NCBI RefSeq assembly: GCF_027923555.1
Contig: NZ_AP025523.1
Location: 1,364,001 to 1,428,000, forward strand
Direction of reading: 5' to 3'
Length of the DNA stretch: 64,000 nucleotides
Source of the DNA: Vulcanimicrobium alpinum
GTDB lineage: Bacteria > Vulcanimicrobiota > Vulcanimicrobiia > Vulcanimicrobiales > Vulcanimicrobiaceae
The notes below the pieces were generated by a model. It made no database searches and was not told where the DNA came from. It saw only the letters and a list, made by a program, of their open reading frames with translations. Shown in pieces: positions 9,201 through 25,891 of the stretch (positions are counted from its first letter, which is position 1; each line of letters begins with the position of its first letter). Position numbers and translations under genes: made by a program.

Positions 9201-9986
9201 TCAAGCGCCGGCCAGGATGGGCCGCAAGCCGCGCATGAACGCGCCGAAGCGCTCGTCGCTCTCGTCGCTGCTCGGCAGTTCCGTATAGACCGCGATCGCC
9301 CAGCGGCTCCCGGTCGCGAGCGTGAGGATCCCGCCGTCGTGCGCGACCTCGTCGGTGTCGCCGGTTTTGTGCGCGAACGTGTCGCCGGGTTCGAGGCCGC
9401 GGTGGAGCTTCACGTCCCACCACGACGTCGCGAGGATCCCGCGCAGGAGCTCCGACTGCGGCAGCGCCCGCGCGTCGAGGGCAACGAAGAACGCGAGGGC
9501 TTCGGCGGCCGGGAAGCTGTTGCGTCCGTCGGCGTGCGGATCGTCGATCAGCGGCAGCGCGCCCGAGAGTTTGCGCCGGAAGAAGGTCTGCCCGAAGCCG
9601 AGCCGGTGCGCGGTCGCGGTCGCCCGATGGCGGTCGAGCACGTCGAAGAGCTCGTTGGTCGCGACATTGTCCGACCGCTGGAGCATCAGCGTCACGAGTT
9701 CCTCGACCGTGCTCACGTAGCCCGGCTCGAGCGGGGAAGGGGTGTCGTTCGCGGTCAGGTTCTCGGCCGCGATCCGCACCGGCGTCTCCCAGGTCAGGTG
9801 ACCGGCGTCGATCGCCGCCCCGACGACGGCGGCGAGGGGCAGCTTGATCATCGACGCCGGGTAGATCCAGCGCCCGTCGTCGCGCGCGAAGCCCGCGGCC
9901 GGCCGGTCGAGCCGCTGCAGGTGCAGCTGGGCCGCCCCCAGCCCCGCGTCGTCGGCGAGGCGTCCCAGGAGATCCGGCGTCAGCAC
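9201..9986 (-). CDS. class A beta-lactamase-fold serine hydrolase
   Basis: A 261-residue enzyme with all three active-site motifs of the penicillin-binding/beta-lactamase superfamily: SxxK as PASMIKLP near residue 46, SDN in QRSDNVATN near residue 106, and KTG in AHKTGDTDEV near residue 208. No signal peptide is visible from the GTG start at 9986, which is unusual because class A beta-lactamases are exported. It is the first gene upstream of livK in the same direction (67-base gap), so it may be co-transcribed with the Liv operon and act on peptides or amides rather than on beta-lactams. Substrate is unknown. Confidence 0.85.
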   Translation of the reverse strand: MLTPDLLGRLADDAGLGAAQLHLQRLDRPAAGFARDDGRWIYPASMIKLPLAAVVGAAIDAGHLTWETPVRIAAENLTANDTPSPLEPGYVSTVEELVTLMLQRSDNVATNELFDVLDRHRATATAHRLGFGQTFFRRKLSGALPLIDDPHADGRNSFPAAEALAFFVALDARALPQSELLRGILATSWWDVKLHRGLEPGDTFAHKTGDTDEVAHDGGILTLATGSRWAIAVYTELPSSDESDERFGAFMRGLRPILAGA

Positions 9987-9992
9987 CGTGTC

Positions 9993-10059
9993 ATGCGTGT
10001 GGGTACTTGCACGGAACTTTTCCGTTCGCTATGATGTCCATGCGGGTACCCACACGCAT
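9993..10059. promoter_or_regulatory. 14-base perfect inverted repeat flanking a promoter
   Basis: ATGCGTGTGGGTAC at 9993-10006 is repeated inverted at 10046-10059, 39 bases apart. The arms bracket the plus-strand promoter at 10007-10035 and lie just upstream of the divergent hydrolase start at 9986. This looks like a two-site operator that could control both directions, for example by the nearby TetR protein. Confidence 0.7.
10007..10035 (+). promoter_or_regulatory. sigma-70 promoter of the STAS-LolA / tetR / emrA / tolC genes
   Basis: TTGCAC (10007-10012), a 17-base spacer and TATGAT (10030-10035). The expected transcription start near 10042 leaves a leader of about 20 bases to the ATG at 10062. 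Confidence 0.75.
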
Positions 10060-10061
10060 AG

Positions 10062-11063
10062 ATGACGACGATGAGAGAAACGCAGCTTTTTCACTATCCC
10101 CTCCGATTGCACGCCGCCGACGCGGACGCCCGTTCCAAGGTCGAGGCGGCCGTCGCCGACGTCCTCGCCGTCGACTGGGCGCTCCCGCGCCTGCGCGTCG
10201 TCCTCGAAGGCCAGCCGCTGGCCTCGGAGACGATCGTCGCGCTCGTCGCCGGGCTCCGCCGGCTGCGCGAGCATGGCGGCGCGATGGAAGTCGTGCCGGT
10301 CAGCCCGCTCGTGCGCGACGCCTTCGCCGTCGCCGGCCTCGACCGGGTCTTCGCGTTTCCGATCGACGCCGAGCGCAACGAGCGCCCGCGCCGGTCGACG
10401 GGCTTCCTGCGCCGGCTCACCGCCGCGTCGTTCGCCGTCGTGTTCGCGCTCTTCGCGATCCCGGCGTTCGCGCAGCCCGATCGCCCGACCGATCCCGCGC
10501 AGATCATCGCGCGCGTCCAGGAACGCAACCCGAACCTCTCGTCGTATCAGGGCCGGCTGCACGTCGATCTGCGGATGACGTCGTTCCCGTTCTACCGCAC
10601 CGGACTCGACGCGTCGACCTATTATAAGAAGCCGTCGAACTACGAGGTTGTCTTCGACCGCGTCCCCCGGCTGGCGAAGGGCTTCGACAAACTCTTCGCC
10701 GACGTCGGCGATCCGTCGACCTGGGAGAAGCGGTTCGTCATCACCTACGAAGGCGAGACGGCGTACAACGGTCACCCCGACCTGCAGCTCAAGATGGTGC
10801 AGCGCGTACGCGGGATGATCGATCACGAGACCGTCCTCGTCGATCCGATCGCGTGGACGGTCGACTCGATCCGCTACGATTACTACAACGGCGGCCACAT
10901 CACGATGACGCAGACGTTCCGCCAGATCGGCGGGTTCTCGATGATCGCCGAGCAGAGTGCCGAGATCGCGATCCCGTATGCGAAGGCCGTCGCGCACGGC
11001 TCGTATTCGGATTACAAGACGAACGTCGCGCTCGACGACTCCGTCTTCACTCGGAAGAACTGA
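10062..11063 (+). CDS. STAS domain fused to a membrane-anchored LolA-like domain
   Basis: A 333-residue protein with an odd layout. Residues about 1-105 resemble a STAS (anti-sigma antagonist) domain, with RLRVVLEGQPLASETIVALV and a final LDRVFAFPI. Residues about 117-138 are a membrane or signal segment (FLRRLTAASFAVVFALFAIP ending AFAQ). Residues about 145-333 resemble a LolA/outer-membrane-lipoprotein-sorting domain (ARVQERNPNLSSYQGRLHVD, and DHETVLVDPIAWTVDSIRYD). The STAS part would be cytoplasmic and the LolA-like part periplasmic if the segment is a type II anchor. No key phosphorylatable serine can be assigned with confidence. It is followed at one base by tetR. Confidence 0.7.
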   Translation: MTTMRETQLFHYPLRLHAADADARSKVEAAVADVLAVDWALPRLRVVLEGQPLASETIVALVAGLRRLREHGGAMEVVPVSPLVRDAFAVAGLDRVFAFPIDAERNERPRRSTGFLRRLTAASFAVVFALFAIPAFAQPDRPTDPAQIIARVQERNPNLSSYQGRLHVDLRMTSFPFYRTGLDASTYYKKPSNYEVVFDRVPRLAKGFDKLFADVGDPSTWEKRFVITYEGETAYNGHPDLQLKMVQRVRGMIDHETVLVDPIAWTVDSIRYDYYNGGHITMTQTFRQIGGFSMIAEQSAEIAIPYAKAVAHGSYSDYKTNVALDDSVFTRKN

Positions 11064-11064
11064 C

Positions 11065-11661
11065 GTGCTCGCAGCAGGCCATCGTACTCAGACCGGGGTC
11101 GAAGAGACGCGCGCGCGCATCATCAACGCTGCGCGCGAGCTCTTCGAGGCGCGCGGGACGCGCGGCACGACGACGCGCGAAGTCGCCGAACGCGCCGGCG
11201 TCAACGAAGCGACGCTGTTCCGGCACTTCGGCTCCAAACGCGCCCTGCTCGACGCGATGCGCGAAGCCTCGTGCGGGATAGACGAACTCCGTTCGACGAT
11301 CGCGTCGCTCTCGGGGACCGACGTCCGCGCCGACCTGCGCGTGCTCGCGCGGCAATCGGTCGAGCACATGCTCGCCAAGCGCGCGATGATGTGCGTCTCG
11401 CTGGCGGAAGAAGCGGCGGGAACCGACGACGCGCCCGAATGGCGCGGTCCGTCGCAGATCGTGGACGAGCTCGTCGCCTACTTCACCGCGCGGATCGCCG
11501 CCGGCCAGATGCGCGGCGATGCGCTGGTGCTTGCCCGCTGTTTTTTGGGCACGTTCTTTTCCTACGTCGTCGGACGCAAGATCTGGGGCAGCGGTGCGAT
11601 CGCCGACCCCGCCGCGATCGACGCGATCGTCGATGTCTTTCTGAACGGAGCTTGCGTCTAG
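11065..11661 (+). CDS. TetR/AcrR family transcriptional regulator
   Basis: A 198-residue repressor. The N-terminal helix-turn-helix reads TRARIINAARELFEARGTRG then TTREVAERAGVNEATLFRHF near residues 13-55. The C-terminal ligand-binding part is typical in length. The GTG start at 11065 follows GGAAGAA and keeps the normal spacing to the helix-turn-helix. It sits immediately before the emrA-tolC efflux genes, the usual target of such regulators, and the 14-base inverted repeat at 9993-10059 is a candidate binding site. Confidence 0.92.
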   Translation: MLAAGHRTQTGVEETRARIINAARELFEARGTRGTTTREVAERAGVNEATLFRHFGSKRALLDAMREASCGIDELRSTIASLSGTDVRADLRVLARQSVEHMLAKRAMMCVSLAEEAAGTDDAPEWRGPSQIVDELVAYFTARIAAGQMRGDALVLARCFLGTFFSYVVGRKIWGSGAIADPAAIDAIVDVFLNGACV

Positions 11662-11663
11662 TC

Positions 11664-13073
11664 ATGGAAACCCGCACCGAAGCCCCGCCGCAGCCGCGGC
11701 CCACCGTCGCGGACGGCCGCGGGGCGCCGCCGAGTGCCCCTGCCGGGGGCGCGGCGGTCGAGGCGACGTCGCGCCGGCGTCCGCCGATCGCCGTGATCGT
11801 CGTCGGCGCGATCGTGCTCGTCGCCGCGCTCATCTGGGGCGTCCGCTATCTGGCCTACGCGACGACGCACGAGTCGACCGACGATGCGCGCGTCGACGCC
11901 GACACCGTGACCGTGACCAGCAAGATCGCCGAACGCGTGAACCGCATCCTGGTCGACACCAACCAGCCCGTGCGCAAAGGCCAGGTCATCGCGCGGATGG
12001 ACGACACCGACGAACGCAACGCGGTGCAGCAGGCGCAGGCGGCGCTCGACGCGCAGCGCTCGCAGGCGCGTGCGGCGCAGGAGAACGTCTCGCTGACGCG
12101 CGCGCAAGTCGCCGCGCAGTCGCAGCAAGGCTCGGGCGGTATCACGTCGGCGCGCAGCAGCATCGTCAACGCCCAGGCGAACGCCGCGTCGGCGCAGCAG
12201 CAGGCCGATGCGGCGCGCGCCGCGATCGCGCAGTCGCAGGCGCAACTGAAGGTGGCGCAGTCGCAGGTGCCCGCGGCGCGCCAGGGGCTCGTGCGCGCCA
12301 ACGCCGACCTCGCGCGCTACGCCGCGCTCGTGCGCACGGGCGACGTGGCGAGCCAGCAGCTCGACGCGCAGCGCGCGGCGCAGGCGCAGGCGCAGTCGCA
12401 GTATCAGTCGGCGCTCGACAACGTCACCGCGGCCCAGACCGCGGTCGTGCAGAGTCAGGCGCGCTATACCGCCGCGGTCGCTGCGGCGAACGCCGCCACC
12501 GCCGGGATCGGCGCGCAGCAGGGTCAGCTTCAGACCGCGCAAGGCCGGCTGACCGAGAGCGACAACCCGTATCGCGTCTCGGCGACGCAGGCGCAAGCCG
12601 ACGCTGCGTTCGCGCAGGCAGGCTCGCTGCAAGCGCAACTGAAGACCGCGCAGGACAAGCTCGCGTACACGCAGATCCGCGCGCCGATCGACGGGATCGT
12701 CGGCGCGAAGAACGTCGAGGTCGGCACGTACGTCTCGCCGGGCCAGTCGCTGATCGTGATCGTTCCGAACTCGGGAACGTACGTCACCGCGAACTTCAAA
12801 GAGACGCAGCTCGGGAAGATCAAGGTCGGTCAGCCCGTCGACGTCACGGTCGACGCCTATAAAGGCACGACGTTCCACGGCCACGTCTCGGCGATCGCGC
12901 CGGCATCGCAGAACACGTTCAGCCTCGTCCCGGCGCAGAACGCAACCGGCAACTTCGTGAAGGTGACGCAGCGGATCCCCGTGCGCATCATCGTCGACAA
13001 CCCGCCCGCCGACAAGCCGCTCCGCGTCGGGATGTCGGTTGTCGCGGCGGTCGACACCCGCAAGGGATCGTAA
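11664..13073 (+). CDS. EmrA/HlyD-family efflux periplasmic adaptor
   Basis: A 469-residue membrane fusion protein. A short cytoplasmic tail is followed by one membrane span (IAVIVVGAIVLVAALIWGV, residues about 33-55). The lipoyl half-motif TDDARVDADTVTVTSKIAER leads into a long Ala/Gln-rich coiled-coil hairpin (about residues 115-330). The second lipoyl half is YTQIRAPIDGIVGAKNVEVG and a beta-barrel domain follows. It bridges an inner-membrane pump to TolC. The coiled coil is long and repetitive. No pump gene is adjacent. Confidence 0.93.
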   Translation: METRTEAPPQPRPTVADGRGAPPSAPAGGAAVEATSRRRPPIAVIVVGAIVLVAALIWGVRYLAYATTHESTDDARVDADTVTVTSKIAERVNRILVDTNQPVRKGQVIARMDDTDERNAVQQAQAALDAQRSQARAAQENVSLTRAQVAAQSQQGSGGITSARSSIVNAQANAASAQQQADAARAAIAQSQAQLKVAQSQVPAARQGLVRANADLARYAALVRTGDVASQQLDAQRAAQAQAQSQYQSALDNVTAAQTAVVQSQARYTAAVAAANAATAGIGAQQGQLQTAQGRLTESDNPYRVSATQAQADAAFAQAGSLQAQLKTAQDKLAYTQIRAPIDGIVGAKNVEVGTYVSPGQSLIVIVPNSGTYVTANFKETQLGKIKVGQPVDVTVDAYKGTTFHGHVSAIAPASQNTFSLVPAQNATGNFVKVTQRIPVRIIVDNPPADKPLRVGMSVVAAVDTRKGS

Positions 13074-13078
13074 CCTCC

Positions 13079-15214
13079 GTGCCGTTCGCCGTCCGTTCGC
13101 TCTCGCTCGCGCTGAGCGCGAGCCTCTTCACCGCGTCCGCGCTGCCGCTCGCGGCGGAGGCCCAGACGCCCCTACCGCCGCCGCGAGCAACGCCCGCATC
13201 GCAGGCGACGCCCGCATCGCAGCCGACGCCGGCGTCGCAGGCAACGTCCGCGCCGGGGACTGCGCCGGCATCGCCTCCGCAAACTCCGCTCACGGCGCCG
13301 TCAAATGGCGCGCCGCCCTCACCCGGTGTACCGACGCAGCCTGCGACCGGGCAGCCCGCGGCCTCGCAGCCGGCAACGTCGAACCGCGGCACGCCGCCGT
13401 CGGGACGCGGCGGTTCGGCGGGGGGCGCGCTTCCGCCGCCGGTGCCTGCCGTGCTTCCCGCGGTCCCCGACATCGCGCCGGGCTTCAGCGCGCCGATCGC
13501 GACAGCGCCCAACGGCGATCTCGTCGGCGTGCAGCAGCAGCCGTTCGTCGGCCTCACGCTGCAGGACGCGATCGCGATGGCGCTCCAGCGCAACACCGAT
13601 CTGGCGGTCGCGCAGTCGAATCGCCGCATCGCGAACTACCAGATCGTCGCGGCGCAGGGCGCGTACGACGTTCGTTTTCAGTTGGCGCCGTCGTACGCAC
13701 ACAGCGTGAGCCCCGCCGTCAGCCCGTTCCAGACCGGCCCCGGCGGCGGACCGATCACGCAGGACACCACCGGCGCGACCGCCGGGTTCACGGGTCAGAC
13801 GGCGACGGGCGCCCGCTACTCCGCGACGCTCAACGGGAACCGCATCTCGTCCAACGCCGCGACGAATTCGTACGATCCGTTCTATCAGACCGCACTCCAG
13901 CTCAACGTCACCCAGCCGCTGCTGCGCGGCCACGCGATCGATCAGACCCGACAGCAGCTCCAGCTTGCCCGCACCAACGCGACGATTCAGACCAACGCCG
14001 CGCTGCTGCAGGCGTCGAACACCGTCGTTGCGGTCTCGAACGCGTATTACGATCTGGTGGCGGCGTGGCGCAACGTCGCGATCCAGGAACAAGGGCTGCG
14101 CCAGGCGACCGCGCAGGCGGCGTCGAACCGTCGGCTCGCCGCGCGCGGTGCCGTTGCGCCGACCGATATCGTCGAAGCCAACACGCAGGTCGAAGTCTTT
14201 CAGGACAATGTCTTCTCGGCCTTGCAGAACGTGCAGCGCCTGCAGACCACGCTCAAGTCGCAGATCCTCGCCAATCCGGCGGATCCGGTGTGGTTCGCGA
14301 ACCTCGTTCCGACGACGCCCGTCGCGCAGATCCCGCAGGAGCCGAGCGTCGACGCGCTGATCGCGTCAGCGATCGCCAACCGCCCCGAAGTGGCGCAGCT
14401 GCGCGCGCAGCGTGAGAACGCGAACACCAACGCCGCCTTCGCGCGCGATCAGCTCAAGCCGCAGCTCGATCTCGGGCTCGGGTACACCGCGAGCGGCTTT
14501 GCCGGCGTCCTCGCGCCGGCGTCGGCGAACCCGATCGTGGGCCTGTTCGCCGCGCAGATCCAAGCGGTCAACACCCTGATCGCGCGCTCGAACGCGGCGA
14601 ACCCCGGTGCGCCGCCGATCCCGCCGATCACCGGCGGCTTCCCGCCCTCCCCGTCGTACCAGACGGGGCGCTTGGGTCAATCGTTCCAGAACCTGCTCGA
14701 CAACCGCTTCCCGACCTACAGCGCGCAGCTCACGCTGCAGATCCCGATCGGCAACCGCACCGCGAAAGCCGACTACGGGATCGCGCAAGAACAGCAGCGC
14801 CAAGTCTCGCTTCAAGAGACCGCAGTGCTGCAGCGCGTGCGGTCGGAATCCGTCAACGCGATTCAAGGTCTGCGCGAAGCGCAGTACCGCGTCGTCTCCG
14901 CGCGGTCGGCGCGCGAGGCGGCCGAGCGCGTCCTGCTCGGCGAGCAGCGGCGCTTCGGCGCCGGCACGTCGACGACGTTCCTCGTGCTGCAGCGGCAGCT
15001 CGACGTCGCGAACCAGCGCGGCCGCGAACTGCAGGCGCAGATCGATCTCGACAAGGCGATCGTCGAGCTGAACCGCGTGAGCGGCGGGATCTTCGCGCAG
15101 AACGGGATCGACGCGAGCGCGTTGGGCATGCCGACGCTGGGCGCGGCGAGCAGCACGACGTCGTCGCTGCCGCCGCCCGCAACGATCTCCGCTCCGCAGG
15201 TGCGCAAGCGCTGA
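13079..15214 (+). CDS. TolC-family outer-membrane efflux protein
   Basis: A 711-residue outer-membrane channel. The signal peptide is MPFAVRSLSLALSASLFTAS with cleavage near AEAQ. Residues about 29-130 are a Pro/Ala/Ser/Gln-rich linker containing three tandem ATPASQ-like hexapeptides (about 13187-13238). The TolC domain follows from about residue 155 (LQDAIAMALQRNTDLAVAQS), with two outer-membrane-factor repeats, and ends with the conserved YRVVSARSAREAAERVLLGE-type helix. It is longer than usual TolC proteins because of the linker. GTG start at 13079, six bases after emrA. Confidence 0.93.
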   Translation: MPFAVRSLSLALSASLFTASALPLAAEAQTPLPPPRATPASQATPASQPTPASQATSAPGTAPASPPQTPLTAPSNGAPPSPGVPTQPATGQPAASQPATSNRGTPPSGRGGSAGGALPPPVPAVLPAVPDIAPGFSAPIATAPNGDLVGVQQQPFVGLTLQDAIAMALQRNTDLAVAQSNRRIANYQIVAAQGAYDVRFQLAPSYAHSVSPAVSPFQTGPGGGPITQDTTGATAGFTGQTATGARYSATLNGNRISSNAATNSYDPFYQTALQLNVTQPLLRGHAIDQTRQQLQLARTNATIQTNAALLQASNTVVAVSNAYYDLVAAWRNVAIQEQGLRQATAQAASNRRLAARGAVAPTDIVEANTQVEVFQDNVFSALQNVQRLQTTLKSQILANPADPVWFANLVPTTPVAQIPQEPSVDALIASAIANRPEVAQLRAQRENANTNAAFARDQLKPQLDLGLGYTASGFAGVLAPASANPIVGLFAAQIQAVNTLIARSNAANPGAPPIPPITGGFPPSPSYQTGRLGQSFQNLLDNRFPTYSAQLTLQIPIGNRTAKADYGIAQEQQRQVSLQETAVLQRVRSESVNAIQGLREAQYRVVSARSAREAAERVLLGEQRRFGAGTSTTFLVLQRQLDVANQRGRELQAQIDLDKAIVELNRVSGGIFAQNGIDASALGMPTLGAASSTTSSLPPPATISAPQVRKR

Positions 15215-18110: not shown

Positions 18111-18839
18111 TCAGAGCTTCGCCGCTGCGGCGGCGTCGACGAACCAGTGCAGGTCGCCGCTGCGCGGACGCACGATCTGCGACGGGTACACGTCGGGCTG
18201 CGGCGGCCCGTTGAGGACCATCGCCAGCGCGTCGGCCTTTTCCGCGCCGCCGGCGGTGATCGTGACGCTGTGCGCGTCGTTGATCGCGTGCGGCGTCAGG
18301 GTGATCCGCCAGCGGTCGAGCCGCGGGACGAAGTGCGCGATGCAGAGCGCGCTGCGCGCGATCCCGCTCACGGTGCCCGGGAAGAGTGATGCGGTGTGTC
18401 CGTCGGGGCCCATCCCAAGCAGGATCAGGTCGAGCCGCGGACGCTCGCCGAGCTCCCGCTGCAGCACCGCGTGATAGTCGGCGGCCGCGGCGGTGGGGTC
18501 GTCTTCACCGCGCATCCGATGAACGCGGCCGGGCGCGACGGCGAGCGGATCGAGCAGCGTCTCGCGGTTCATGCGGTAGTTGGAATCGGCGTCGGACGGC
18601 GGCACGCAGCGCTCGTCGCCGAACCAGAACACCACGCGCGTCCAGTCGAGCGCATCGCGGCGCGGCGGCGCCGCGAGCAGGGCGTTCATCGCGCGCGGCG
18701 TCGAGCCGCCCGCCAGCGCGAGGTGCGCGCGCTCGCGCGCGGCGAGGGTGCGCTGGAGGACGGCGACGGCGTGATCGGCCGCCGCCGTCGCGAGCGCGCC
18801 GGCGTCGGGGAGCACCGTCACGTTGCGGAGCCCCGCCAC
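18111..18839 (-). CDS. pgl: 6-phosphogluconolactonase
   Basis: A 242-residue DevB/SOL-type lactonase that hydrolyses 6-phosphogluconolactone to 6-phosphogluconate. Family blocks are LALAGGSTPRAMNALL, FWFGDERCVPPSDADSNYRM and LDLILLGMGPDGHTASLFPG, the last two with the active-site Asp/Glu and His. It converges with the epimerase gene four bases away. It is about 3.6 kb from the zwf-gnd block that makes and uses its substrate and product. Confidence 0.95.
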   Translation of the reverse strand: MAGLRNVTVLPDAGALATAAADHAVAVLQRTLAARERAHLALAGGSTPRAMNALLAAPPRRDALDWTRVVFWFGDERCVPPSDADSNYRMNRETLLDPLAVAPGRVHRMRGEDDPTAAAADYHAVLQRELGERPRLDLILLGMGPDGHTASLFPGTVSGIARSALCIAHFVPRLDRWRITLTPHAINDAHSVTITAGGAEKADALAMVLNGPPQPDVYPSQIVRPRSGDLHWFVDAAAAAKL

Positions 18840-19879: not shown

Positions 19880-20776
19880 TCACGATGAAAGGCCGGCGCT
19901 GCGGATCTCGGCGGCGAGGGCGGCGAGGGCCGCCGAGGTCGCGTCGCGGCGCGTCACGGCGGCGAAGCGCAGCACGGTCTTCGGCATGACCGCGAGGTAG
20001 TGCAGCCCGCGGATCCCGAGATCGCGCGCGGCGGAGGTGACCAGCGTGACGCCGAGACCGGCGGCGACGAATCCCAGCACGATCCGTACGTCCGTCGCTT
20101 CCTGCACGATGCGCGGCGTGAAGCCGGCCTGCCGGCAGCGTTCCACGATGTCGTCGTTGATCGATTCGCCGATATTTCGTCCGAACATCACCCAGTCGTC
20201 GCCGGCGAATTCGGCGAGCGCGACCGACCGCCGTTTCGCGAGCCGGTGACGGCTGTCGACGGCCGCCGTCACGCGCTGGTCCGGGACGGGAAGAATCTCG
20301 AATTCATCGACGCGTCTCTCGCAGTCCGGGACGAGCCGCAGGAACGCGCAGTCGATCTCCCCGTTGCGCAGCGCCGAGATCTGATCGACGGAGGGCATCT
20401 CGCGCAGGTCGAGCGCGACGTCGGGGCGCCGCCGGCGGTAGCTGCGCAGGACGGCGGTGAGGATCCGCGCCGGAAACACGCGCGAGTAGCCCAGCGTCAA
20501 GCGTCCGACCAGCCCGCGCGCCCCGAGCCGGGCGACGCGCTCGACGTCGTCGGCGGCTCGAAGTGCGCGGCGCGCCTGCTCGAGGACGAGGCGCCCGCTT
20601 TCGGTCAGGCGCACGCGCCGGCCGGCCCGTTCGAAGAGGTCGACGCCGATCTCGGCCTCGAGCTTCGCCACCTGGGCGCTGAGCGCCGGCTGTGCGATCG
20701 CGAGATCCTCCGACGCGCGGGTGAAGCTCTCGTGCTCGGCGACCCCGACAAAGTATCGCAATTGCCGCAGTTCCAT
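19880..20776 (-). CDS. LysR-family transcriptional regulator
   Basis: A 298-residue regulator. The winged helix reads MELRQLRYFVGVAEHESFTR then PALSAQVAKLEAEIGVDLFE (residues 1-60), followed by an effector domain of two Rossmann-like lobes. It is divergent from the MFS efflux gene at 20850, the classical arrangement for LysR control of a neighbour. The palindrome ATCGCG-GTT-CGCGAT at 20787-20801 lies between them. Confidence 0.93.
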   Translation of the reverse strand: MELRQLRYFVGVAEHESFTRASEDLAIAQPALSAQVAKLEAEIGVDLFERAGRRVRLTESGRLVLEQARRALRAADDVERVARLGARGLVGRLTLGYSRVFPARILTAVLRSYRRRRPDVALDLREMPSVDQISALRNGEIDCAFLRLVPDCERRVDEFEILPVPDQRVTAAVDSRHRLAKRRSVALAEFAGDDWVMFGRNIGESINDDIVERCRQAGFTPRIVQEATDVRIVLGFVAAGLGVTLVTSAARDLGIRGLHYLAVMPKTVLRFAAVTRRDATSAALAALAAEIRSAGLSS

Positions 20777-20786
20777 ATCACCGTCT

Positions 20787-20801
20787 ATCGCGGTTCGCGA
20801 T
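20787..20801. promoter_or_regulatory. candidate LysR operator palindrome
   Basis: ATCGCG and CGCGAT separated by GTT, in the 73-base gap between the divergent lysR and MFS genes. Its size and position suit a LysR recognition site, although the T-N11-A form is not strictly kept. Confidence 0.45.
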
Positions 20802-20849
20802 CGGTTGGTTGCGTATCGGTATTGGACGCGCGCGCTCGCGTGCGCGACG

Positions 20850-22355
20850 ATGGCGCCGATGGATTCCGTCGTCGAGTACGGGTGGCGCCGCGCCGCCGTG
20901 GTCGCAGGGGTGATGCTCGCCACGGTGCTGCAAGTGCTCGATGCCACCATCGTCAACGTCGCGCTGCCGACGATTCAGGGCAATCTCGGCGCGTCGCTCG
21001 ACGACGGCACGTGGATTATCACCGGCTACATCATCGCCGCGGTGATCGTCATCCCCCTGACGCCCTGGCTGCAGACCCGCTTCGGCCGCAAGCGCTACTA
21101 CCTCGCCGCGATCGCGGGATTCACGCTGACCTCGGCGCTGTGCGGGCTCTCGACCGGCCTCGGGGAACTGGTCGTCTTCCGCATCCTGCAGGGGCTCTGC
21201 GGCGGCGGGCTCGCGGCGACGGGACAGGCGATTCTGCGCGACACGTTCCCGCCCCGGCAGCTCGGCCTCAGCCAAGTCCTCGTGGCGACCGGCGCGATCA
21301 CCGGGCCGTCGATCGGACCGACCCTCGGCGGCATTCTCACCGATGCGTGGTCCTGGAACTGGATCTTTTACATCAACGTGGTTCCCGGCGTGCTCGCGGT
21401 CGTGCTGCTGCTGCTCTACCTGCGGGATCCGGCGGCGCCGCGGCGCGCGCGCATCGACGTTCCGGGATTGGCGCTGCTGGCGATCGGTCTGGGCTGCCTG
21501 CAGTACGCCCTCAACGAGGGCGAACGCAACGACTGGTTCGCGGACGCGCGGCTAGTGACGTGCGCGGTGCTGGCGTGCGGCGGACTCGCGGCCTTCGTGT
21601 GGTGGGAGCTGCGCACCGCGCAGCCGATCGTCGACCTGCGGATCCTCAAGAACCGCACCGTCGCGGCGGGGACGCTGCTGGCGGGCGTCACCGGCTTCAC
21701 GCTGTTCGGCGGGATTGTGCTTGCGCCGCAGTTCACGCAAGGCGTCCTCGGTTTCACCGCGACGCTCAGCGGCGAGTCGGTGCTGGTGCGTGCGCTCGGG
21801 ATCCTGCTCTTCACGCCGCTGACCCTGGCGTTTCTCAACCGCATGAAGTGGAACGCGCGCTGGCTGCTGGGGGCGGGCTACGCGCTGGTAGCGGCGGCGA
21901 ATCTCTGGCAGGCCGAGGTGACGGCGTCGTCAGGCGAATTCGCAACCTACGTGCTGCCGCTCTTCGTGGGCGGCATCGGGTTCGCGCAGCTCTTCACGCC
22001 GCTCGCGGTGACGGTGCTCGGCGCGGTGCGCGGCGTCGACACGCCCAAAGCCGCCGCGCTGCTCGCGCTCGCGCAGCAGCTCGGCGGATCGATCGCGACC
22101 GCGGTTCTGGTCACGCTGCTCGATCGCCGCGGTGCGTTTCACCACGACGCGCTTGCCGCGGGAATCACGCTCTCGCGCGCGGCGATCGCGAATGTCGTGC
22201 AGCACGTCTCGCCGCAAGCGCTCGCGGGCCTGGTAACGCGCGAAGCCTCGGCGCTCTCGTTCGCCGACGCGTTCTACCTGCTAGCCCTGTGCGGCGCGCT
22301 CGCCGTCCCCCTCGTCCTCATCCTGCGCACCAAACCGGTCCTCGCGTCACCCTGA
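20850..22355 (+). CDS. MFS drug:H+ antiporter, DHA2 (EmrB/QacA) family
   Basis: A 501-residue inner-membrane transporter with 13-14 hydrophobic segments. It opens with the DHA2 motif LQVLDATIVNVALPTIQGNL and has motif A as LQTRFGRKRYYL and motif C near GAITGPSIGPTLGGIL. It exports hydrophobic compounds using the proton gradient. It may supply the pump for the EmrA and TolC proteins at 11.6-15.2 kb, which lack one. The start could be 20850 or the ATG at 20859. Confidence 0.92.
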   Translation: MAPMDSVVEYGWRRAAVVAGVMLATVLQVLDATIVNVALPTIQGNLGASLDDGTWIITGYIIAAVIVIPLTPWLQTRFGRKRYYLAAIAGFTLTSALCGLSTGLGELVVFRILQGLCGGGLAATGQAILRDTFPPRQLGLSQVLVATGAITGPSIGPTLGGILTDAWSWNWIFYINVVPGVLAVVLLLLYLRDPAAPRRARIDVPGLALLAIGLGCLQYALNEGERNDWFADARLVTCAVLACGGLAAFVWWELRTAQPIVDLRILKNRTVAAGTLLAGVTGFTLFGGIVLAPQFTQGVLGFTATLSGESVLVRALGILLFTPLTLAFLNRMKWNARWLLGAGYALVAAANLWQAEVTASSGEFATYVLPLFVGGIGFAQLFTPLAVTVLGAVRGVDTPKAAALLALAQQLGGSIATAVLVTLLDRRGAFHHDALAAGITLSRAAIANVVQHVSPQALAGLVTREASALSFADAFYLLALCGALAVPLVLILRTKPVLASP

Positions 22356-22438: not shown

Positions 22439-23407
22439 TCAGCCGACCAGCGTTGCAATCCAGCTCAGCGCGGTCACGAAGACCTCGTCTGCGCCCGGTT
22501 CGAGGATCGCGCGCTCGAGCAGCGAGGCGTTGTCGATCGCCTGCAGCGGAACCAGACGGCGCTCGCGCCCGTATTCGCCTTCGACCCAGACGGCGACGAC
22601 GGCCGGGTCGTCGGTCACCTCGCCATGATACCACGAGCCGTCGGTATCGAGGCAGACGCTGTGCACGCGGCGCGTCTGTCCCGCGATCTCATGCGTAAAC
22701 GCAATCTCTTTTCCGTCGCGAGCGGTGAAGGCGCTGCGGCCGGACGCGGTCCATCCCAGCCGGCTCGCGAGCCAGGCGCCCAGATAAAGCGCCTCCGCCT
22801 CCGAGCCGCTGGTGATGTGCAGGGCGCGCATCGTGTAGAGTTCCGAGAGCAGACGCGGATCGTCGAAGAAGCGTGCGATCATGTCCTGCCACGGCGTGAG
22901 CCGCAGCCACGCGAGATCGCGGATCGCGATCTCGGGGTGCCGCGGCGCGAAGGCGGCGAGACTGCACACCGCCGTATCGTCCGTCACACTCCCGGACGAG
23001 TCGACGAGCAGCGTGTGGGCGCGCGCCAGCAGCGCGTTCAAAATCTCGCCGGCGTCGACGTGCGCGCCGCTCCACCACAGCACGGTGGAGACCGCGTCGC
23101 GGCAGAACGCGCTGACGTACTGATCGACGCCGTCGGCGTCGAGCGCGGACGCATCGATCGAGACGCAGTTGCGGCTACCGCCGCAGCTCACGCGCGGCTC
23201 GCCGCTCTCGGCCCCGGTGCGGTCGAAGATCATCAGAAACGACGGATACTTCTCGGCGAGCATCCGCGCGCGCTCGAGCACCCAATCGCGCCGGCCCGCT
23301 TCGTCGATCCAAACGATGAAGGTGAGCGTCGAGGTGGAGAGGCCGCCGAGCGCGAGCTCGCCGCGCATCGTCTCGATCGACGAAGAAACCGCCGGCTCCG
23401 AGGTCAT
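22439..23407 (-). CDS. opcA: glucose-6-phosphate dehydrogenase assembly protein OpcA
   Basis: A 322-residue protein of the OpcA family known from Cyanobacteria and Actinobacteria, where it promotes oligomerisation and activity of Zwf. Recognisable blocks are TSTLTFIVWIDEAGRRDWVL, YPSFLMIFDR, and LAWLRLTPWQDMIARFFDDP. The start overlaps the zwf stop as ATGA, so the two are coupled. It is the last gene of the tkt-to-opcA operon. Confidence 0.88.
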   Translation of the reverse strand: MTSEPAVSSSIETMRGELALGGLSTSTLTFIVWIDEAGRRDWVLERARMLAEKYPSFLMIFDRTGAESGEPRVSCGGSRNCVSIDASALDADGVDQYVSAFCRDAVSTVLWWSGAHVDAGEILNALLARAHTLLVDSSGSVTDDTAVCSLAAFAPRHPEIAIRDLAWLRLTPWQDMIARFFDDPRLLSELYTMRALHITSGSEAEALYLGAWLASRLGWTASGRSAFTARDGKEIAFTHEIAGQTRRVHSVCLDTDGSWYHGEVTDDPAVVAVWVEGEYGRERRLVPLQAIDNASLLERAILEPGADEVFVTALSWIATLVG

Positions 23408-24960
23408 ATCTTTCTCCACTCGCGGCCGTCGGCGGCGAGCAGACGATCCGACGACGCCGGACCCTGACCGCCGGCCGCGTAGTTCGGAAAGTTCTCGTCG
23501 TAGGTCGCGGTCCACCGGTCGAGGACCGGCATGACGATGTTCCACGCGGTCTCGACGGCATCCCAGCGGGTGAAGAGCGTCGCGTCGCCGCGCATCGCGT
23601 CGCCGATGAGCCGTTCGTACGCGGGCGCTGAGACGACGCCGAAACCCGTCCCGTAGTTGAAATCCATCGAGACCGAGCGGATGTGCATCTTCGGTCCCGG
23701 GACCTTGGCGTTGAAGCGCAGCGAGATCCCCTCGTCGGGCTGGATCTTCATCACCAGCACGTTGTTGTCGAGCCCTTCGCCGGCTTCGCCGAAGAGCCGG
23801 TGCGGGATCGCGCGGAAGCGGATCGCGATCTCCGACATCTTGTGCCCCAGACGCTTGCCGGACCGCAGGTAGAACGGGACGTCGGCCCAGCGCCAGTTGT
23901 CGATCTGCAGCTTCACCGCCGCATACGTCTCGGTGTTCGAGTCGGGCCGCACGTCGGGCTCCTCGCGATACCCCGGCACCGGCTTCCCGCCGATCGAGCC
24001 CGCCTCGTACTGTCCGCGAGCCGTCTCCTGCATCACGCGGGCGCGGTCGATCGGCCGCACCGCGGAGAGCACTTTGAACTTCTCGTCGCGGATCGCGTCG
24101 GCGCCGGAATTCACCGGCGGTTCCATCGCGACGAGCGCGAGCAGGTTCATCACGTGGTTCTGGATCATGTCGCGCAGCGCGCCGGCGTTGTCGTAGTAGC
24201 CGCCGCGGCCTTCGACGCCGACCGTCTCCGCCGCGGTGATCTGCACCGAGTCGACGTAGCGCCGGTTCCAGATCGGCTCGAAGATCACGTTGGCGAAGCG
24301 CAGCGCCATGATATCCTGCACCGGCTCTTTGCCCAGGTAGTGATCGATGCGATAGATCTGCTTCTCGTCGAAGACCTTGGAGACTTCGGTCTGCAGCGCG
24401 CGCGCCGAGTCGAGATCGGTGCCGAACGGCTTCTCGATGATGATCCGCGTCCAGCCGGTCTTGTTCTGATGCGGGCCCAAGCCGGCGTCTTCGAGCTTGC
24501 CGACGATCGTGGCGAACAGCGACGGCGGCGTGCTCAGGTAGAAGAGCCGGTTTCCCGCGGTTCCGAACTGCTGGTCGTTGTGCTCGAGGACGTCGCGCAG
24601 CTTTTTGTAGGCGTCGGTGTCGTCGAACGGCCCGCTGACATACGAGACATGGTTGGCGAAGTCGCTCCACAGCGGCTCCTTGGCCAGGCCGCTGCGCGAG
24701 AACTCGTCGACGCTCTTGCGCATCTCGTCGCGGAACGACTGATCGCTGAACGGCGAGCGCGAGAAGCCGACGATCGCGTAGTTCGCCGGGAGAATGTCGC
24801 CGAGGCGGAGGTTCCACATCGCCGGCATCAGCATGCGCTTCATCAAGTCGCCGCTCGCGCCGAAGAACACAATCGAACACGGATCCCCGATGCGGTTGAC
24901 CGCGATCCCCGCGCGCAGCGGGTTCGCCGCCTGCGGCGGCGCGGTGAGGGTCGTGGTCAT
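23404..24960 (-). CDS. zwf: glucose-6-phosphate 1-dehydrogenase
   Basis: A 518-residue enzyme that oxidises glucose-6-phosphate to 6-phosphogluconolactone with NADP+. The dinucleotide motif is FFGASGDLMKRMLMPAMWNL near residue 33. The active-site histidine is in YRIDHYLGKEPVQDIMALRF. Length matches the family. Seven bases separate it from gnd upstream, and it overlaps opcA downstream. Confidence 0.97.
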   Translation of the reverse strand: MTTTLTAPPQAANPLRAGIAVNRIGDPCSIVFFGASGDLMKRMLMPAMWNLRLGDILPANYAIVGFSRSPFSDQSFRDEMRKSVDEFSRSGLAKEPLWSDFANHVSYVSGPFDDTDAYKKLRDVLEHNDQQFGTAGNRLFYLSTPPSLFATIVGKLEDAGLGPHQNKTGWTRIIIEKPFGTDLDSARALQTEVSKVFDEKQIYRIDHYLGKEPVQDIMALRFANVIFEPIWNRRYVDSVQITAAETVGVEGRGGYYDNAGALRDMIQNHVMNLLALVAMEPPVNSGADAIRDEKFKVLSAVRPIDRARVMQETARGQYEAGSIGGKPVPGYREEPDVRPDSNTETYAAVKLQIDNWRWADVPFYLRSGKRLGHKMSEIAIRFRAIPHRLFGEAGEGLDNNVLVMKIQPDEGISLRFNAKVPGPKMHIRSVSMDFNYGTGFGVVSAPAYERLIGDAMRGDATLFTRWDAVETAWNIVMPVLDRWTATYDENFPNYAAGGQGPASSDRLLAADGREWRKI

Positions 24961-24967
24961 CGCTTCG

Positions 24968-25891
24968 TCACTCTCCGGCAGCGCCCGCGTGCGCCGGCTC
25001 TTCCTTGATTGCGTGGCCGCCGAACTGATTGCGCAGTGCGGCGATCACCTTCGCGCTGAACGACTCGTCCTGGCGCGAGACGAAGCGCGAGAGCAGCGAC
25101 ATCGTGATCACCGGCGCCGGGACGTTTTCGTCGATCGCGGCCTGCACGGTCCATCGCCCCTCGCCGGAGTCCTCGACCCAGCCGCGGACCTTCGAGAGCG
25201 TCGCGTCCTCCTTGAAAGCAAGCTCCGCGAGCTCGAGCAGCCACGATCGCACGACCGAACCGTGCAGCCAGAGCGCGGACAGCTGATGGAGGTCGTACCG
25301 GTACTCCGACTTCTCGAGGATCTCGAAACCCTCGCCGTACGCGGCGAGCATCCCGTACTCGATCCCGTTGTGCACCATCTTCGAGAAGTGCCCGGCACCG
25401 CTCGGTCCGACGTACGCGTAACCGTCGGGCGGCGCCAGCGTCGTGAAGATCGGCTCGACGCGTTTCACCGCCGCCTCGTCGCCGCCGACCATCAGGCAGT
25501 AGCCGTTCGCCAGCCCCCACACGCCGCCGGACGTGCCGGCGTCGATGAACGCGATCTGCTTCTCGCAGCAGCGCGCGTAGCGCGCCTTCGAATCGGTCCA
25601 GCGCGAGTTGCCGCCGTCGATGATCGAGTCGCCGGGCTGCAGCATCCCCAGCAGGTCGGAGATCGTCGAGTCGGTGGGCGCGCCCGCCGGCACCATGATC
25701 CACACCGCGCGCGGCGGCTGGAGTTTCGCGACCAGATCGGCGAGCGACGAGGCGGCGGTCGCGCCGTCGCCCGCGCTGCGCGCAACCGCAGCCGAATCGC
25801 GATCGTACGCCACCACCGCATGTCCGCCGCGCACCAGCCGCGTCGTCATGTTGGCGCCCATCTTGCCCAGCCCGATCATCCCGAGTTGCAT
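24968..25891 (-). CDS. gnd: 6-phosphogluconate dehydrogenase (decarboxylating), short form
   Basis: A 307-residue enzyme of the short 6PGDH class (about 300 residues against 470 in the long class), which tends to prefer NAD+. The N-terminal Rossmann motif is MQLGMIGLGKMGANMTTRL, the substrate loop is IDAGTSGGVWGLANGYCLMV and the catalytic lysine lies in GAGHFSKMVHNGIEYGM. The product is ribulose-5-phosphate, which feeds Tkt and Rpe. It is within the pentose phosphate operon. Confidence 0.95.
   Translation of the reverse strand: MQLGMIGLGKMGANMTTRLVRGGHAVVAYDRDSAAVARSAGDGATAASSLADLVAKLQPPRAVWIMVPAGAPTDSTISDLLGMLQPGDSIIDGGNSRWTDSKARYARCCEKQIAFIDAGTSGGVWGLANGYCLMVGGDEAAVKRVEPIFTTLAPPDGYAYVGPSGAGHFSKMVHNGIEYGMLAAYGEGFEILEKSEYRYDLHQLSALWLHGSVVRSWLLELAELAFKEDATLSKVRGWVEDSGEGRWTVQAAIDENVPAPVITMSLLSRFVSRQDESFSAKVIAALRNQFGGHAIKEEPAHAGAAGE

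Follow-up and report, generated by a model that had tools for sequence, protein, structure and literature searches.

An open reading frame of Vulcanimicrobium alpinum that lies in front of genes for a TetR-type regulator, an EmrA-type adaptor and a TolC-type channel appears to join a STAS domain, a hydrophobic segment and a LolA-like domain in one chain. This raises the question of whether the two halves truly belong to a single protein and, if so, what such a protein would do at the head of an efflux or export operon. We analysed the surrounding window, a stretch of 64,000 nucleotides (bases 1,364,001-1,428,000) from a one-contig genome of 3.51 Mb, and compared the locus with those of its relatives, most of the named ones being metagenome-assembled 'Candidatus Eremiobacterota'.

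One open frame with two predicted folds

The gene is a single open frame on the forward strand, encoding 333 amino acids that run from a STAS fold through a hydrophobic, signal-peptide-like segment to a LolA-superfamily fold (Table 1). Since independent genomes carry the same STAS-LolA frame, a sequencing artefact or a frameshift merging two genes is ruled out, and the fusion in the window is real. The sequence-only reading had proposed this order of STAS domain, membrane segment and LolA-like domain, and both predicted folds as well as the hydrophobic segment agree with it.

Table 1. Features of the fusion gene, its operon and the shared upstream region (window coordinates)
Feature	Coordinates	Strand	Basis
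Divergent class-A beta-lactamase-like gene, shares the operator region	9201..9986	-	Beta-lactamase2 E 1.3e-32
Operator-like palindrome 1, TGTGGGTACTTGCA	9998..10011		exact fit to TGYRRGTACYYRCA; conserved in relatives
Putative promoter TTGCAC-17-TATGAT	10007..10035	+	by eye; conserved columns between the palindromes
Operator-like palindrome 2, TGCGGGTACCCACA	10041..10054		pattern search; conserved in relatives
STAS - signal-anchor - LolA-like fusion gene	10062..11063	+	open frame; same frame in relatives
STAS domain, residues 7-104, S55 at the phospho-acceptor column	10080..10373	+	profile, structural and alignment comparisons
Basic linker and hydrophobic signal-peptide-like segment, core residues 121-137, terminal AFA	10374..10472	+	sequence
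LolA-superfamily domain, residues 141-333	10482..11060	+	predicted fold, family profiles
TetR-family regulator	11065..11661	+	TetR_N E 8.2e-20
EmrA-type periplasmic adaptor	11664..13073	+	TIGR00998 242 bits (cut-off 390.8), HlyD_3 6.8e-17
TolC-type outer membrane channel	13079..15214	+	OEP E 1.9e-36

Residues 1-123 of the window protein matched the Pfam family STAS_2 at E 0.0018 (18.8 bits, below the curated cut-off of 29.2). Of the 29 aligned members, 21 reached E <= 0.01 against this family (best 4.5e-11), and 19 matched TIGR00377. When the 29-member profile was compared with the PDB, it found TM1442 (2.8e-9) and SpoIIAA (2.5e-6), among others. The predicted model of this half (pLDDT 83.1) has three main helices, three strands and a short fourth strand; Foldseek returned STAS structures in its top rows (best E 4.3e-3, probability 1.00), and structural comparison aligned the model with TM1442 (Z 10.1, rmsd 2.5, 95 residues aligned), RsbV (Z 9.3), SpoIIAA (9.1) and MlaB (6.9). 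The last of these values is little proof by itself because unrelated ClpP rows reach a Z of about 6 lower in the same list. The STAS fold put forward for the N-terminal half is thus upheld by structure prediction.

As for the C-terminal half, a LolA-type half-open beta-barrel is firmly predicted. Its model (pLDDT 87.5) aligned with 3bk5 at a Z of 17.5 (rmsd 3.1, 184 residues aligned), with further rows for the DUF1329 protein 4z48 (Z 17.4), LolA3 of P. gingivalis (17.0) and NE2245 (14.3); LolA and LolB followed at about 8-12 and LprG at 6.5, with RseB also among these lower rows, and TM-scores to LprG were low (0.23-0.26). Profile searches had less to offer: the window's LolA half has no Pfam match, LolA_like (PF17131) was matched by six of 41 members (best 6.8e-6), and the profile of this half found no PDB chain at E <= 0.01. 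While the LolA-like fold had been foreseen from the sequence, the suggested role in lipoprotein handling is not specially indicated, given that the nearest folds include LolA3, DUF1329, LolA, LolB and LprG and that the gene's neighbours encode efflux-pump components.

We then asked whether the STAS half retains the features of a phosphorylation switch. The switch column was defined, from profile-PDB alignments, as the one aligned with the SpoIIAA serine that is alanine in 1tid, and we take this SpoIIAA column to be the phospho-acceptor. In the window protein the site reads Ala54-Ser55. Ser or Thr occupies the acceptor column in 13 of the 29 STAS members, and the rest have Asp, Ala, Pro, Ile, Val or Asn there; the preceding Asp is kept by 13 of the 29, of which none is from the window's genus. 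A conserved phospho-switch is therefore unlikely. Of the cytoplasmic STAS switch that the sequence-only reading had envisaged, the fold stands, and its use as a conserved phospho-switch is improbable. L65, R66, R69 and L93 are invariant across the 29 sequences. In eight chosen pairs among 12 fused sequences, dN/dS was 0.17-0.75 for the STAS part, below 1 in all eight, and 0.11-0.25 for the LolA part. By these ratios the STAS part is retained by purifying selection, under weaker constraint and with faster evolution than the LolA part.

Fused, split and STAS-less loci, and the segment between the domains

In a 60-genome search, the fusion was present in all 11 genomes of the window's genus, the window's own included (in one, G003, the one frame lies in two pieces), and in five further genera of its family. 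When 103 genomes of the order were searched by profile, one uninterrupted frame spanning both domains appeared in at least 22, among the matches listed; 20 of these belong to the family and two to another family, in which the matches begin at model position 52. This recurrence supports a real fusion. The sequence-only reading had also considered that the halves might be separate genes in relatives, and this is so in other genera and not in the window's own. Among 29 TetR-linked loci from a first fetched set of 40, 15 were fused, 11 split and three without STAS; 13 further named loci divided into four fused, four split and five without STAS, the carrier and pump genes remaining in these five (paralogues, loci lacking TetR and duplicates of named records enter neither count). 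With separate genes in many relatives, the fusion is to be seen as the state of one clade and not as the general form.

In the split loci, the STAS and LolA genes lie in the same operon and share either 4 nt, of the ATGA type, or 1 nt, so that the two proteins would already be coupled there. Furthermore, three genomes of another genus (g44; L104-L106) carry STAS and LolA in one reading frame parted by a single stop codon, with at most one codon between this stop and the carrier's ATG; judged by this junction, the arrangement is one step from fusion. In a tree of LolA, TetR, EmrA and TolC combined, all fused loci formed one clade (support 1.000) with the STAS-less locus L050 inside; L046-L048, which have no TetR, EmrA or TolC, were not part of it. 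A LolA-only tree again grouped the fused loci and added those of the second family, and with paralogues included the fused clade had a support of 0.919 and contained L056 (no TetR) together with the STAS-less L046 and L050. The direction of the change, fusion or fission, is read by parsimony only.

Paralogues were seen beside these loci. L046 (5848-6582, genome G037) keeps the start and signal segment of the fusion and is missing the STAS core, which a second copy, L047, has. Genome G000 holds seven LolA-like places, L067-L070 among them, and the four others looked at have no adjoining TetR or EmrA homologue. Together these places amount to a family expansion.

Between the two domains of the window protein, residues 121-137 form a 17-residue hydrophobic core with a mean Kyte-Doolittle value of 2.24, the hydrophobicity maximum of the protein, preceded by an n-region of charge +4 and ending in AFA|Q. 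Of 18 fused proteins, 17 have an Ala/Val-X-Ala (-3,-1) motif behind the core; L042 is without it by that pattern. We looked for a lipobox cysteine in the window's segment and found none. In split relatives the matching stretch is, by eye, an ordinary-type signal peptide of the carrier, and it therefore looks as if the fusion took in the signal peptide of a formerly separate protein. Of the membrane-tethered LolA domain that had been proposed, the hydrophobic segment is borne out and the tether is in doubt, since a segment that so resembles an old signal peptide may allow the periplasmic part to be cleaved free. Internal initiation was considered as another source of a separate carrier. No in-frame start codon lies between 25 residues before the core and the core's second residue in the window gene, nor in ten of 15 others, and initiation of this kind is rejected for these; the remaining five of 15 have at least one internal in-frame start near the segment, and there it would be possible.

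The operon and its operator region

The fusion gene is followed by the TetR, EmrA and TolC genes at gaps of 1, 2 and 5 nt (the EmrA profile search used the frame from 11679, and the start was then re-read as given in Table 1). These gaps and the profile matches are in agreement with the transcription unit proposed for the fusion gene and its three neighbours. We found no EmrB-type or other transporter permease gene in the window's operon, no ABC ATPase or MlaE gene (MlaE lies at another position of the genome) and no kinase or phosphatase gene. Among the 21 loci looked at, 12 have an MFS-type frame of 505-529 amino acids between EmrA and TolC; these frames are all similar to one another, and we take them to be DHA2-type MFS proteins, named EmrB from this and from their position. 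STAS presence and EmrB presence showed no correlation by eye across loci.

The nearest EmrB-type homologue in the window lies at 20.7-22.4 kb, about 5.6 kb downstream of TolC (47-48% identity to the operonic gene of relatives), and several more are encoded elsewhere in the genome, the best at 58% identity. The region 19880-22355 comprises this EmrB-like MFS gene and a divergent neighbour frame that is presumably a LysR-type gene; the MFS protein might take the place of the permease that the operon lacks. The frames around it, at 22439-25891 and at 18111-18839 (- strand), we take to be oxidative pentose-phosphate genes (G6PDH-, 6PGDH-, OpcA- and 6PGL-like).

Upstream of the fusion gene, two 14-bp palindromes 43 bp apart flank the putative promoter region. 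The pattern TGYRRGTACYYRCA was first read from the window and its relatives and then searched: the 3.5-Mb genome has two exact sites, both here, and none for the reversed control pattern, while 0.11 sites per shuffle are expected in the window at one mismatch. With up to two mismatches allowed, each of the 29 TetR-linked loci has at least one palindrome in front of the carrier gene and 25 of them have two or more, and none was found in four checked loci without TetR (L046-L048, L053). The palindromes are thus strong candidates for a TetR operator. The putative promoter between them was recognised by eye; a consensus promoter scan did not report it. Of the 29 TetR-linked loci, 26 have a beta-lactamase-like gene next to the operon; in the window the start of this gene is 12 bp from palindrome 1, which suggests that it may share TetR control.

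Possible roles of the fusion product and its relation to known systems

Because the fusion bears LprG-like and MlaB-like elements together, we favour, tentatively and at not quite an even chance, a role as a membrane-held carrier for a hydrophobic substrate of TetR-controlled EmrA-TolC efflux or export, with the STAS domain as a cytoplasmic docking or tuning handle. The product would be the first component of such a system. Its STAS domain would stay in the cytoplasm, the hydrophobic segment would insert N-in/C-out, and the LolA domain would face the periplasm, where it might take a hydrophobic (lipid-like) molecule and give it to the EmrA-TolC pump or receive it from there. The former signal peptide would hold the carrier at the inner membrane, much as a lipid anchor holds LprG, and the STAS handle would serve a membrane transporter in the way that MlaB serves MlaF, in most cases with no phosphorylation involved. 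TetR would bind both palindromes around the promoter and come off in response to a compound handled by the pump, and the divergent beta-lactamase-like gene may come under the same control. As the STAS domain is missing from three of 29 and five of 13 loci in which carrier and pump genes are kept, it appears to be dispensable and would tune rather than drive the system. Evidence against this role comes from the operon's lack of a permease, from the absence of STAS in some loci, from its faster evolution and from the low TM-scores to LprG.

The motif behind the hydrophobic core also bears on the choice, since with it in nearly all fused proteins signal peptidase could cut the tether. On a different account, which we regard as somewhat unlikely, the chain is a precursor of two proteins: Sec would insert it whole, signal peptidase I would cut after AFA, and a free periplasmic carrier and a short, membrane-held STAS remnant would result, the fusion only equalising their amounts as overlapping genes do. 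The motif in 17 of 18 proteins, the basic n-region, the ordinary signal peptides that separate carriers have by eye and the start-stop overlap of the separate loci are all in keeping with this, but such a motif can turn up by chance where a segment is rich in Ala, and descent would by itself account for it. A classical anti-anti-sigma switch, in which an RsbW-like kinase would set STAS phosphorylation and carrier loading would affect its state to give outside-in signalling, is highly improbable to our minds. SpoIIAA, RsbV and TM1442 are indeed the nearest solved folds, TIGR00377 is matched by most members and the window protein has Ser at the acceptor column; yet this column and the Asp before it vary among members, the Asp being absent throughout the genus, the operon has no kinase or phosphatase gene, and control is already explained by the local TetR. 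We consider it very doubtful that the STAS part is a relic in decay, one that is tolerated because carrier export goes on unhindered. It evolves faster than LolA and is missing in other branches, and the paralogue L046 has kept the start and signal segment without the STAS core. Against decay stand the open frame retained in at least 22 genomes, the dN/dS below 1 in all eight chosen pairs, the four residues invariant in 29 sequences and a full fold predicted with good confidence.

Returning to the membrane-held carrier with a STAS handle, we also considered that the protein may represent a new kind of membrane-spanning adaptor, in which a cytoplasmic STAS handle would grip an inner-membrane transporter and the LolA-type lipid carrier would work on the far side, so that a hydrophobic substrate would be loaded onto an MFS-type tripartite pump by a process coupled across the membrane; this we hold to be unlikely. 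LolA-type carriers for MFS transporters and STAS domains that tune lipid transporters, known apart, would here be joined in one transmembrane chain, and our search of the open-access literature found no description of a STAS-LolA fusion. Related species furnish natural controls for the role of STAS, as they carry the operon in fused, split and STAS-less form.

Several known systems share parts of this arrangement. With LolA, LolB, LolA3 and LolA_like (PF17131) the window protein shares the fold (Z 17.5 to 3bk5 and 17.0 to LolA3), with 11-15% identity in those structural alignments. The fold and the profile match to SpoIIAA likewise connect the STAS half to SpoIIAA and RsbV, from which the window family differs in that its acceptor motif is not conserved and a secreted domain is fused to it. 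The EmrAB-TolC tripartite MFS pump resembles the operon in having an EmrA-type adaptor and a TolC-type channel under a local regulator, whereas the window's operon lacks EmrB and has a carrier and STAS in addition.

The Mla system provides another likeness, as a small STAS protein of three helices and about four strands is tied to a lipid-carrier system; MlaC is not known to be LolA-type. According to two reports, MlaB is a minimal STAS protein of four strands and three helices (PMC7367683), much like the model of the window's STAS half, that is needed for the assembly and activity of the lipid transporter and whose T52 maps to a SpoIIAA serine (PMC5016091). MlaB, however, is a protein of its own and binds the ATPase MlaF, whereas STAS is fused in the window, and membership of the Mla system is rejected, as the operon has no ABC gene, MlaF or MlaE and MlaE lies elsewhere in the genome.

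The LprG-Rv1410 (P55) pair of mycobacteria resembles the window's system, as proposed here, in its inner-membrane-held LolA-type carrier, its hydrophobic substrate and the MFS partner in the operon: LprG shares an operon with the MFS transporter Rv1410, the two are held to move triacylglycerides, and LprG is anchored in the inner membrane (PMC10576003). The passages on this pair describe a lipid anchor and make no mention of STAS (PMC10576003), whereas the window protein has a transmembrane or signal segment without Cys and a STAS domain. In addition, the window's operon contributes an adaptor and TolC and lacks the MFS gene, though 12 of 21 relatives' operons have one. With no lipobox cysteine in its segment the protein is not an LprG-type lipoprotein carrier, and with no MFS permease in its operon it does not belong to an LprG-MFS operon. 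By analogy, we infer that the fusion works like LprG-Rv1410 with an MlaB-like STAS domain and belongs to neither system.
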